Below, in pieces: positions 1,428 through 8,512 of a stretch of 8,618 nt of DNA (its first letter is position 1; each line of letters starts with the position of its first letter). Source of the DNA: Candidatus Altarchaeum sp. (GTDB lineage Archaea; Altiarchaeota; Altiarchaeia; Altiarchaeales; Altiarchaeaceae). A program made the translations under genes and the position numbers. The notes under the pieces were generated by a model, which was given only the letters and a program-made list of their open reading frames with translations, searched no databases and was not told the DNA's origin. The stretch covers positions 33,499 to 42,116 of the forward strand of contig JAGTWP010000005.1 of assembly GCA_018260755.1 (NCBI GenBank), written 5' to 3'.

Positions 1428-2765
1428 ATGGCAGACAAAACCAAAAGAATGATTATCGTATCAAAAGAGAAGAAAGAAAAGAGAACAAATAGGTTGTTGT
1501 TGGTTGGCTCATTTGTAGTTGCTATAACAATGGTCTTATCGGGGCTTATTATGAGCAATTTTCATATGACACAGCAACAGCCGCAAAATCCCGTGGATGT
1601 TGTTTCGGATTTAAATTTAAAGACAACAGAAGAGGTAACATTTTATGTTGAAAATTTTTCGGATGAATTTATTTTTATCACAAATAGCGGTTTTGATTGG
1701 AACACTCTGAACTACATGAAAAATATGTCCGTAAAAGGTGTCCAAAAAATTGAAGTAGAATACGTTACTAACAAGTACTATATTTTTAAATTTAAACTGA
1801 ACACCACAAATAGTACTGATTCGGATAAGAATGACACCTTTAACGAAATTTATAATAATTTCAGATTTTCGCTTAATATAGAAGATAAAAACAGTTTGCT
1901 TGGTGTATATAATGGTTATCTGTATGGAATTGCAAAAAGATTCAAAATATTTTCCCCTGTTTCTACGCAACCGGACGATTTTGTTACCGGAGCATGGTAT
2001 ATAATGAAAACAAACACAACGACAGAAGATGTGGCACTTGTATCAAAAATTATTGAACAATGCAATAATATGTCAGCGGTTGTGAAAAACATAACTACCG
2101 TAAATGTTGAAGGTGCAACGGACAATGCAAAAATTTTAGGGAAATTAAACATAAACACAAGTAGCCTGAAGATAGAAAATCCTAAGGTTGAATTAGGTAA
2201 TGATAATGCTACAAATATTTTGCTTTTGAAAAATTTAATAAATAAATATCCTAATAGTATTTTAACAGATAATACTTCAAACATTTCAGCGATAAATTTT
2301 GCCGAATTTGCAATAAAGGTGAAAAATTTGGAAAATTTAAATAACAGCAATAATACAAATACGAGTCCAGAAATTATTTCATTTGAGTATAATTTCACAA
2401 AGGAAGAAATGGAAAAAATACTGAATGATGCTCTGACAGGCACAAAAATAAATTATGCTATTAATCCCGGAAAAATAACCTTCGGAATAGACGCAAATAT
2501 ATGGAACAAAGAAATTTATGAAAACATAAAGAAAAATTTAAAAAATTTAACGATAGAGAAGCAGGGAACTGTCAGCATAGCGGAATCATGCGTGAATGAT
2601 AAAAAACTGATTGCCATTACTAAAAATACCGACTTCAATGCAGTTGTAAATTTAAATAGAAAGAGCAACGATACTATAAAGGTAAATATAAATTTATATT
2701 CAATGACAGGAGGTGGAGAAGATAGATATATTCCTTATCTGGCGGTTGATTCGGATTTGAAATAA
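1428..2765 (+). CDS. Membrane-anchored, sequon-rich extracellular protein of unknown function
   Basis: I do not recognise this 445-residue protein. The N-terminus is strongly basic (lysine/arginine-rich, residues 4-22), followed by one hydrophobic segment at about 23-42 (LLLVGSFVVAITMVLSGLIM). This predicts an N-in anchor with the remaining 400 residues outside the cell. No lipobox cysteine is present. By my count the outer part has 18 N-x-S/T sequons, clustered around residues 125-145, 210-250 and 300-330, as expected for a heavily N-glycosylated archaeal surface protein. Only two cysteines exist (C212 and C388), both outside, so they could form one disulfide. Asn-rich low-complexity linkers separate alternating beta-like and helical blocks. 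It follows the winged-helix gene by 37 bases and precedes atpF by 194. A link to ATP synthase assembly is possible but unsupported. Confidence 0.85.
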   Translation: MADKTKRMIIVSKEKKEKRTNRLLLVGSFVVAITMVLSGLIMSNFHMTQQQPQNPVDVVSDLNLKTTEEVTFYVENFSDEFIFITNSGFDWNTLNYMKNMSVKGVQKIEVEYVTNKYYIFKFKLNTTNSTDSDKNDTFNEIYNNFRFSLNIEDKNSLLGVYNGYLYGIAKRFKIFSPVSTQPDDFVTGAWYIMKTNTTTEDVALVSKIIEQCNNMSAVVKNITTVNVEGATDNAKILGKLNINTSSLKIENPKVELGNDNATNILLLKNLINKYPNSILTDNTSNISAINFAEFAIKVKNLENLNNSNNTNTSPEIISFEYNFTKEEMEKILNDALTGTKINYAINPGKITFGIDANIWNKEIYENIKKNLKNLTIEKQGTVSIAESCVNDKKLIAITKNTDFNAVVNLNRKSNDTIKVNINLYSMTGGGEDRYIPYLAVDSDLK

Positions 2766-5260: not shown

Positions 5261-6760
5261 ATGGAAGATAAAATACCTAAAATTCCAAAAGAATATAACT
5301 CAGTAGTTGAGGTTAAGGGACCATTGATAGTTGTAGAGGGTGTAAAAGGTGTGATGTATGGGGAGGTTGCGGATATAAAAAGCGGAGACGGGAAAATTTT
5401 ACACGGACAAGTTCTTGATGCAATGGAAAATTTGGCTGTTATACAGGTTTTTGAAGGTACATCGGGTTTAGATACAAAAAACACATCCATAAAATTTTTA
5501 GGCGAGACGATGAAATTGGATGTTAATTTTGATATGCTCGGAAGAATATTTGACGGTGCGGGAAGACCGATTGACGGAAAAGGCCCGATAATTCCGGAAA
5601 AAAGAATAGATATTAACGGTTTGCCGATGAATCCTTCCGCAAGACAATTTCCAAGGGACTTTGTCCAGACAGGGATTTCCACGATAGACGGGATGAACAC
5701 ATTAGTCAGGGGACAAAAATTACCTATATTTTCCGGTTCGGGACTAACTCATAATCGTCTGGCGGCACAAATAGCGAAACAGGCAAAGGTCCTGGGAGAA
5801 GGAGAGAGTTTTGCAGTTGTTTTTGCGGCGATGGGAATTACAGCCGAAGAAGCACATTTCTTTAAAAGTGAATTTGAAAGCAGTGGGGCATTACAAAAAA
5901 TAGTGATGTTTCAAAATCTGGCAGATGACCCAGCAATAGAAAGAATCATTACACCAAGATTAGCATTAACAACCGCTGAATATCTGGCATTTGAAAAGGA
6001 TATGCATATATTAGTAATTCTGACAGATATGACCAATTATTGTAATGCATTAAGAGAAATTTCAGCTGCAAGAGAGGAAGTGCCTGGAAGAAGGGGTTAT
6101 CCGGGATACATGTATACTGATTTATCAACAATTTATGAAAGAGCTGGAAGAATTATCGGAAAAAAAGGAACGGTTACCCAAATTCCGATACTTACAATGC
6201 CTGACGATGATATCACCCACCCGATTCCGGACTTAACGGGCTATATTACGGAAGGACAAATTGTTCTGGGAAGAGGACTGCATATGAAAGGGATATACCC
6301 TCCGATAGATGTTCTGCCGTGTTTAAGTCGTCTGATGAACCAGGGAATAGGTGAAGGCAAGACAAGAGAAGATCACAAGGAGGTTGCTGATCAGGCGTAT
6401 GCTTTATACGCTGAGGGGAGAGATTTAAGGGATTTGGTTGCTGTTGTCGGAGAAGAAGCGCTATCTCCGAGAGATAAACTCGTGCTCACATTTGCAAATG
6501 TATTTGAAAACGAATTTGTTGCCCAGGGATATGATGATGATAGGAAAATTGCAGGCGATATGAGTCATGGATTGGATACAAGTACAACCCTGGATAAATT
6601 GTGGTACCTGCTTTCAATACTTCCGAAAAACGAACTCATAAGAATAAAGGAAAAGACATTGCAAAAGTATTATCCGCCGGAAGATAAGAGATGGAAACCA
6701 AAAGACAAAGAAGGAGTTGGGCAATCTGGTGAAGCATTGGATATGACAATAGAGGGATAA
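5261..6760 (+). CDS. atpB: A-type ATP synthase regulatory subunit B
   Basis: Subunit B alternates with A in the A3B3 head and binds nucleotide without catalysing hydrolysis. The N-terminal barrel reads [18 protein letters not shown]. In place of a Walker A loop it has the family's degenerate GSGLTHNR at 159-166, where most relatives I know have Pro rather than Thr at position 163. [34 protein letters not shown] and [20 protein letters not shown] follow, all typical of subunit B. The usual family end, around [19 protein letters not shown], is followed by a charged, glycine-containing tail of about 25 residues ([20 protein letters not shown] and on), making 499 residues against about 460-470. 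The gene ends at a hairpin terminator, and subunit D, which often follows B in archaea, is absent. Confidence 0.98.
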
Positions 6761-6826: not shown

Positions 6827-6890
6827 AAAATTTCCGAAATTTCCCGCAAAATTTTTTTGTAATTATAATAGATTTATCAGATTTTTTCTT

Positions 6891-7063
6891 AAATTTACTA
6901 TTTTAAAACCAACATTCTGCACATATAATCAAATTTTTTAATTTCCGAAAATTTGTAAATTTTATAGTTTTTTATGGCGATTTTCAAAATTGCGAAAATT
7001 TTGAAAATCTCCTAACGATGGTGAAATAATATGCGGAACGTTGGTAAATTTACTATTTTAAAA
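6891..7063. mobile_element. MITE-like element with terminal inverted repeats and flanking direct repeats
   Basis: An 18-base direct repeat, aaatttactattttaaaa, occurs identically at 6891-6908 and 7046-7063. Immediately inside are imperfect inverted repeats: accaacattctgcacatat at 6908-6926, and atatgcggaacgttggt at 7029-7045, whose complement is accaacgttccgcatat. The interior (about 100 bases) has no gene but holds a perfect 13-base-pair hairpin at 6979-7009. Terminal inverted repeats bounded by a direct repeat are the hallmark of a small non-autonomous transposable element. The 18-base duplication is longer than most known target-site duplications, so a recombination product or a structured RNA remains possible. 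No transposase is visible in the window. Confidence 0.45.
6979..7009. repeat. Perfect 13-bp palindrome
   Basis: gattttcaaaatt (6979-6991) is the exact reverse complement of aattttgaaaatc (6997-7009), leaving a five-base loop gcgaa. It lies inside the MITE-like element. The 3' side continues into ttttgaaaatctcc (6999-7012), a 14-base string found again at 7272-7285. Confidence 0.9.
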
Positions 7064-7253
7064 TTTGTTTTGAATACTAAAACCCACCTGATTTTAATCT
7101 TTAAAAATCCATAATATTTTTAGATACTAAAAATAGGAGTTTTTCAATCTTTTAAAATTTATACTAAAAACTATGCCGAAAATCTATAAAATTTTTAAAT
7201 GAAATTTTGAAATACGTGAGTGTAAACGAGCGTAAATGTTCCAAACAAAGCGG
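7064..7253. other. Non-coding AT-rich stretch with short repeats
   Basis: No gene is visible in this part of the convergent intergenic region. The string atactaaaa occurs three times, at 7074-7082, 7124-7132 and 7161-7169. A 10-base near-duplicate, gagtgtaaac then gagcgtaaat, lies at 7218-7237. The string ttttgaaatac at 7205-7215 recurs at 7406-7416. This suggests repeated or decayed dispersed-repeat material rather than a promoter or an RNA gene I can name. Confidence 0.6.
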
Positions 7254-7285
7254 GATTTCAAAAACTCAAATTTTTGAAAATCTCC
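7254..7285. repeat. Imperfect palindrome, second copy of the hairpin motif
   Basis: gatttcaaaaa (7254-7264) pairs with tttttgaaaatc (7271-7282) with one bulged base and a six-base loop. Like the hairpin at 6979-7009, it ends in ttttgaaaatctcc and has the same gattt(t)caaaa 5' arm, so the two look like divergent copies of one repeat unit. Confidence 0.75.
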
Positions 7286-7328
7286 GGGCGTTAGCTATGA
7301 GATTTATCCTAAAATATCCAGGCAATTG

Positions 7329-7349
7329 CAAAAATCTTGTAGATTTTTG
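7329..7349. repeat. 8-bp hairpin with five-base loop
   Basis: caaaaatc (7329-7336) pairs with gatttttg (7342-7349) around the loop ttgta. The 3' arm contains a T-run, so the structure could stop transcription from either side. It is the third of four regular hairpins in this convergent region. Confidence 0.7.
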
Positions 7350-7355
7350 GGATAG

Positions 7356-7380
7356 TCAAAAATGCTCCCGGCATTTTTGA
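7356..7380 (-). terminator. 10-bp hairpin, possible bidirectional terminator for atpC
   Basis: tcaaaaatgc (7356-7365) pairs perfectly with gcatttttga (7371-7380) around the loop tcccg. Read on the minus strand it lies 88 bases beyond the atpC stop and has a T-run in its 3' arm, as an intrinsic-type terminator would. It is symmetric, so it could act on either strand. It may equally be a member of the local palindromic repeat family. Confidence 0.4.
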
Positions 7381-7424
7381 TACAGCAAGGTGCGAAGTGA
7401 AAGATTTTTGAAATACACTATTTA

Positions 7425-7468: not shown

Positions 7469-8512
7469 TTACATAAGTACCATCATTTTATTTATCTCCT
7501 CATTATTAACTCCGTATTTTTTGCCAACCAGCAACACCCTTATATTCCTAACATCAAACCACATTTTTCTTAAATAAGTAAGAACATATTCCAATGATAT
7601 TGGATTTGGGATAACAGCCACAGAAGCAGAGGTACTTTCTATCTCCAATTCAAGCATATCAATACTTTTTGTTTTTTTAAATTCTTCAAAGACCTGTGCA
7701 AATAAATTTTCATAAGGTGTTCCTACCAAAATTCCCGGTATTGCATCTATATTTTCCTTACTTATTTGAGCCGCATTTATTGTATTTAAAATTTCAAAAT
7801 TTAAATACGCTCCGGAAGTAGTTTTCTTTATAAAATTATCTGCATCAACCCCCAAAATTTTCATTCTTATAATCGCCTTTAAATTTAAGGCATCAATCCT
7901 TTTCTTTACAAATTTTTCAGTTACTTTTACTTTTTCCGCCTCTCTTGCCCATTTTCTTATTAAATTTATATCCAAGCTATTTTCAAGGTCAAACAAATTT
8001 TCACCATCTATTTCAAATCCCAAAGTTTTTATCTTACCTGTCGCACCCTTAAAGTCAGTGTTTGCTATTTCTTTTAAAATTTCAACCTTTATGTTTCCTT
8101 CTATGCATTCCGCAAGTATTTCATCTGTATTTTTTCCTTCATTTCCGCTTACACCTTTGGCCTTTAATGCCCTTAAAATCCGTTTTAAATTTCCGATATC
8201 AAATTCATCAAGCAGGATTGCCTTACTGCTGTCCCGGACATCCATCGGAAGTGTATTAATTACTGCATTGCAGATATCAAAGTAATAGCTTACAACTGCC
8301 TTTTCTATTTCTTCTAAATTTTCACCACCTTTTCTACTGATTGCCTCCTTTATTTGCTTTTCATACTGTGTTTTTGTAAGTTCGGCAATTGCCATTTCAA
8401 CACTTACTGATTGAAGAATGCGCGTATATGTCTCTTTGTCCATGTGCTGCGGCATTGCAGATACCATCCCGTAAGAGTATGCATAAGTTGCCGCATCTAA
8501 TAATCCTATCAT
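7469..8512 (-). CDS. atpC: A-type ATP synthase subunit C
   Basis: Subunit C (homologous to V-ATPase subunit d) is the funnel-shaped, mostly helical part that joins the central stalk to the membrane rotor ring. The 347-residue product fits the family length (about 330-390). It begins IGLLDAATYAYSYGMVSAMP, like the usual YAYANARVRA-type opening. It continues with helical repeats including SSKAILLDEFDIGNLKRILR and LKAIIRMKILGVDADNFI, and ends with NPISLEYVLTYLRKMWFDVR then NIRVLLVGKKYGVNNEEINK, the usual C-terminal pattern of the family. It lacks the clear P-loop and catalytic motifs of A and B, as expected. The ATG is preceded by acaaaa without a Shine-Dalgarno sequence. It is convergent with atpB, whereas in most archaea C lies upstream of F on the same strand. 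Confidence 0.92.
   Translation of the reverse strand: MIGLLDAATYAYSYGMVSAMPQHMDKETYTRILQSVSVEMAIAELTKTQYEKQIKEAISRKGGENLEEIEKAVVSYYFDICNAVINTLPMDVRDSSKAILLDEFDIGNLKRILRALKAKGVSGNEGKNTDEILAECIEGNIKVEILKEIANTDFKGATGKIKTLGFEIDGENLFDLENSLDINLIRKWAREAEKVKVTEKFVKKRIDALNLKAIIRMKILGVDADNFIKKTTSGAYLNFEILNTINAAQISKENIDAIPGILVGTPYENLFAQVFEEFKKTKSIDMLELEIESTSASVAVIPNPISLEYVLTYLRKMWFDVRNIRVLLVGKKYGVNNEEINKMMVLM

Follow-up and report, generated by a model that had tools for sequence, protein, structure and literature searches.

The element between atpB and atpC

In Ca. Altiarchaeum, a subsurface archaeon not yet cultivated, the gap between two convergent ATP synthase genes holds a short non-coding segment with inverted ends set within a long direct repeat, which raises the questions of whether the segment is a mobile element, what type of transposase may have moved it, and how its flanking repeat came to be so long. 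The window analyzed here (the whole stretch of DNA, 8,618 nucleotides) is part of contig C30 of assembly G000 (1.32 Mb in 78 contigs, 85% complete), and four genomes of the Ca. Altiarchaeum group were examined, namely G000 and its three sister genomes G001, G002 and G003 (completeness of the genus assemblies, 65-87%). Relatives of the AtpB of the window at 91-93% identity belong to Ca. Altarchaeum / Altiarchaeales assemblies. Subunits F, A and B of an A-type ATP synthase are encoded on the plus strand and subunit C on the minus strand, confirming the convergent atpB and atpC named in an earlier sequence-only reading (Table 1); upstream of these genes, a 445-aa protein without Pfam match is encoded (1428-2765, plus strand).

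Within the 708-bp gap between atpB and atpC (intergenic A+T content of 74%), the element opens with CCAACATTCTGCACATA and closes with AATATGCGGAACGTTGG, and its imperfect inverted ends abut the direct repeats exactly, as had been described. The direct repeat proved to be exact and, at 19 bp, longer than the 18 bases first reported; both copies directly adjoin the element. It is the longest repeat in the gap, against a maximum of 15 bp in 100 dinucleotide shuffles. The whole element folds strongly (z -4.95 with respect to shuffles), as is expected of any inverted-repeat element.

Table 1. Features of the atpB-atpC region of the window, and examples of inverted end pairs in sister genomes
Feature	Position	Strand	Remarks
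Body of the very probable MITE	6909..7044	+	136 bp, non-coding; aligned with 10 family copies (alignment A1); family model R1
Left terminal inverted repeat	6909..6925	+	17 bp, imperfect, CCAACATTCTGCACATA; family consensus CCTACATTCCGCACATC
Right terminal inverted repeat	7028..7044	-	17 bp, imperfect; minus-strand reading CCAACGTTCCGCATATT
Left target-site duplication copy	6890..6908	+	19 bp, TAAATTTACTATTTTAAAA; exact repeat; single copy at related empty sites
Right target-site duplication copy	7045..7063	+	19 bp, TAAATTTACTATTTTAAAA; exact repeat
Nested hairpin module	6982..7029	+	Hairpin 6976-6991/6997-7012 plus linker CTCCTAACGATGGTGA 7009-7024; edges inferred from alignment
Target hairpin predating insertion	6865..6901	+	5' arm 6865-6876, loop, 3' arm TAAATTTACTAT 6890-6901
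A-type ATP synthase subunit B (atpB)	5261-6760	+	Flanks element
A-type ATP synthase subunit C (atpC)	7469-8512	-	Flanks element; convergent with atpB
Inverted end pairs, examples	G001:C189:3711-3825; G001:C169:439-553; G001:C66:1065-1178; G003:C131:5398-5511

Relatives in sister genomes

A search of G000 with the whole element returned itself and fragments only, with no second complete copy, while the same sequence found clear relatives in the three sister genomes; the further copies anticipated from the sequence were thus present as complete elements in the genus, and in the window genome itself only as fragments. The end pattern occurs in the sister genomes as inverted pairs approximately 115 bp apart (Table 1). 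Across the four genus genomes about a dozen two-ended copies were counted, one of them complete in the window genome, and those of the sister genomes occupy unrelated sites beside unrelated genes (single-end matches in coding DNA, such as G001:C107:3515, were left out). Alignment A1 defined a common family body of approximately 113 bp with ends CCTACATTCCGCACATC, some copies carrying insertions, and the sequence-only model R1 matched the family in all four genomes (4/4). The terminal inverted repeats are near-perfect in one sister copy (L091). In the window copy, approximately 24 bp of the left interior have been lost, and an additional hairpin module precedes the right end.

With 136 bp (basic form, approximately 113 bp) and no transposase gene, the element falls within the size of a MITE (<500 bp). 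Known archaeal MITEs, from Sulfolobus and Haloquadratum, are likewise short (<500 bp), non-coding, A/T-rich and intergenic, with terminal inverted repeats, direct repeats and presumed mobilization in trans, and Haloquadratum is known to have mobile MITEs in genomes that lack a functional transposase (PMC10969869, PMC3119063). The family studied here differs from them in its low copy number and in its sequence, for which no description was found, and the window copy differs in its 19-bp duplication and in the nested hairpin modules that it carries; the literature searched held no described mobile-element family of this kind for Altiarchaeum.

Two loci of G003, L111:601-1002 (C79) and L107:984-1128 (C60), combine the outer ends of the MITE with a different interior and a right end ...AATTTRAAAGTGCGGAATGTA, and are possibly deletion derivatives of a missing autonomous element. 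A further repeat family of approximately 85 bp (TGCTCAATAA...GTTATTCGTGATTTTTTAACTGTTA...TTATTGAGCA) was found at L119:346-547, L109:1000-1075, L104:1000-1075 and L051:7580-7700; in L119 it lies nested within the MITE, and in L109 it truncates the MITE.

Nested hairpin module

The central hairpin, which the sequence-only reading had called perfect, is present with 15/16 positions paired and belongs to a nested second repeat, not to the basic element. The module is missing from basic copies of the family, and a related module occurs at the same position in two copies from G002 (L082 and L026rc, on C6 and C81); therefore, the composite of element and module probably predates the insertion in the window. 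The linker CTCCGANCGAAGTGAGGTGA, of which the window's own CTCCTAACGATGGTGA is a diverged form, was found (≤2 mismatches) in 36, 102, 45 and 130 copies in G000, G001, G002 and G003, respectively, and its reversed pattern in none. Hairpin modules whose A/T-rich stems vary and whose linker CTCCGAACGAAGTGAGGTGA is conserved are abundant between genes throughout the four genomes, and in the window they occur at 6976-7024 and at 7064-7415, the latter region, to the right of the element, being a mosaic of such repeats. The module resembles REP/BIME-type palindromic repeats (PMC2817692) in forming abundant intergenic palindromes and mosaic arrays, and differs in its A/T-rich variable stems and conserved CTCCGAACGAAGTGAGGTGA linker.

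Target duplications and empty sites

Five of the ten sister copies are flanked by exact repeats of 5-6 bp (ATTAAT, TAAAA, TTAAA, TAAAT and CTATAT), compared with 4/90 mismatched flank pairs (permutation p 0.0002), and a clear target duplication was absent at the remaining five. In this test the copies were aligned at their CC...GG ends, with the edges of some diverged copies set by hand; because looser edges gave a signal not distinct from that of cross pairs, the result holds only if the edges are right. Given these short A/T duplications in the sister copies, the 19 bp of the window copy, three to four times longer, are exceptional, in agreement with the earlier remark on an unusually long duplication. 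The long duplication is a single case, all other copies having at most 6 bp. Several duplication lengths are known for IS1202.

Sites related to the target but empty were recovered with a query made of the left flank, one 19-mer and the right flank. One of them, L233 (G003:C90), is identical at 57/67 positions across both junctions, and the other, L235 (G001:C192), at 44/51; each carries a single 19-mer (one mismatch) and no element. Empty sites bearing the repeat once, the check suggested in the sequence-only reading, thus exist as paralogous copies of the target repeat, not as the orthologous site. The latter was sought in the sister loci L050-L052, where the region following atpB is divergent, broken up by other repeats or cut off before the site is reached; related contigs break in the atpB-atpC region. 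Both L233 and L235 contain an intact hairpin (12-bp stem, ATAGTAAATTTA-13 nt-TAAATTTACTAT) into which no MITE has inserted, and its 3' arm coincides with the first part of the 19-mer; a near-identical left half occurs in the window's own contig (G000:C30:20363, L037).

Candidate transposases

Searches of the window genome (85% complete assembly) with PF13701 and PF01609 gave no match. Genus-wide, the end patterns (≤2 mismatches) formed pairs only up to 402 bp apart, with no transposase-bearing element that had the MITE's own ends, and the single-ended matches L109, L113, L217 and L221, checked for an autonomous element, showed truncated ends and no transposase. A class-wide search with the end pattern outside the genus returned scattered 2-mismatch matches only, and viral contigs searched for the end motif yielded 45 single, chance-like matches with no convincing inverted pair.

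An intact IS1634-family transposase (612 aa; NF033559, 7e-67) is encoded in a sister genome (G002:C177) within an element of 2123 bp, which is flanked by a duplicated TTAAAA (6 bp) and has ends CCCATGTTCGTCA/CCCATGTTCTTCACAACAC; the end pattern of this element, CCCATGTTC[GT]TCA, resembles the MITE ends. The right-end consensus of the MITE agrees with the right end of this element at 13/19 positions (shuffle p 0.0008), and agreement ranges from 8 to 14 of 19 depending on which ends are set against each other (best shuffle p 0.00025), values obtained after several other IS elements had been examined as partner. A transposase with exactly the MITE's ends, proposed at the outset as a check, was not found, the IS1634 element being similar in its ends and target duplication. 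Unlike IS1634-family elements, the MITE is without a transposase, and its ends match the local IS1634 element only in part.

The IS1634 family, preferentially found in Euryarchaeota in the survey of PMC2266710, has ends C-----YT and a usual duplication of 5-6 bp, and long variable duplications (8-514 bp) are recorded for IS1549 and IS1634, for which there was no model at the date of that 2008 review. The ends of the MITE (CCTACATT) and those of the IS1634 element both fit the published pattern, and the duplications of the MITE family, which measure 5-6 bp at sister copies and 19 bp at the window copy, fit that of IS1634. Since the MITE family fits each published point, mobilization by an IS1634-type transposase is the best reading and a fairly probable one; the assignment is made at family level, the exact partner not having been found. 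IS1380 was rejected as partner, given that its sole clear genus copy, at G002:C222, has different ends (GGAAATCC...). That IS1380-like element (L197, 1170-2745) lies within an IS5-like transposase gene and has a duplication of about GTTAA.

Alternative explanations

The feature is very probably a MITE, that is, a non-autonomous DNA transposon copy of 136 bp, without coding sequence, from a small family of the Ca. Altiarchaeum group, because two-ended copies lie elsewhere in the sister genomes, empty sites hold a single 19-mer, and sister copies have target duplications of their own; the same evidence upholds the initial proposal of a non-autonomous transposable element. That it is instead a conserved RNA structure or terminator where atpB and atpC end, as its location between convergent genes and its strong fold (z -4.95) might suggest, is scarcely credible, considering that it is not kept downstream of atpB at L050-L052, within reach of their contigs, that family copies adjoin unrelated genes, that an Rfam search of the element gave no match, and that no terminator-like site was found. 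Equally hard to credit is an origin by chance or by faulty assembly in DNA that is rich in A/T and dense in repeats: related contigs do break in the region and its intergenic DNA is 74% A+T, but the 100 shuffles never reached a 19-bp repeat, and the ends of the element agree with those of a family defined on copies at other loci.

The MITE reading is firmer than the assignment to IS1634. It is unlikely, though by no means as far-fetched as the preceding alternatives, that the element was moved by a different DDE family that makes short A/T duplications (IS1380, IS701 or ISH3). In favor of this, IS1380-, IS701- and ISH3-like transposases are present in the sister genomes, and IS1380 ends start with CC; the G002:C222 element, however, has ends unlike those of the MITE, and we know of none of the three families with long duplications. 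The usual duplications of IS701 and ISH3 are 4-5 bp, yet their published ends (---YACT-Y and CRGT, respectively) mismatch CCTACATTC (PMC2266710). A similarly low probability was given to an ordinary 5-bp duplication (TAAAT or TAAAA) that later gained 14 bp, whether by slippage, by gene conversion or in a second event close by. The first five bases of the 19-mer are TAAAT and its last five TAAAA, both of which occur as 5-bp duplications at sister copies, and the ≤6 bp of all other copies also favor later lengthening, which would nevertheless require an extra event copying precisely to the element edge. Moreover, the related empty sites hold the whole 19-mer once, with continuous flanks, and therefore a simple duplication suffices.

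Proposed insertion and its implications

With the element taken as a MITE, a transposase acting in trans would have bound the 17-bp terminal inverted repeats (CCYACATTCCGCACATC) and inserted the element into a hairpin repeat that was already present downstream of atpB; the nested hairpin module would have been in place near the right end of the copy before it moved. We infer that one staggered cut, with 19 bases between the cleavage points on the two target strands, followed by filling of the gaps, would have produced the direct repeats of 19 bp. The most likely type of transposase would be that of the IS1634 family, with DDE chemistry and A/T duplications usually of 5-6 bp and sometimes far longer.

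Several repeat families nest in one another in these genomes, which probably helps to explain the fragmented assemblies. In the target hairpin, the duplication begins precisely where the loop meets the stem, and it is conceivable, if decidedly improbable, that an IS1634-type transposase meeting an extruded hairpin cuts at positions set by the hairpin, producing long target duplications; if true, such cutting would explain in structural terms why the duplications of IS1634 and IS1549 are long and variable. The case described here, in which a copy with 19 bp duplicated and related empty sites can be compared with sister copies that have 5-6 bp, bears on the question of why long targets are sometimes duplicated in IS1634-type transposition.
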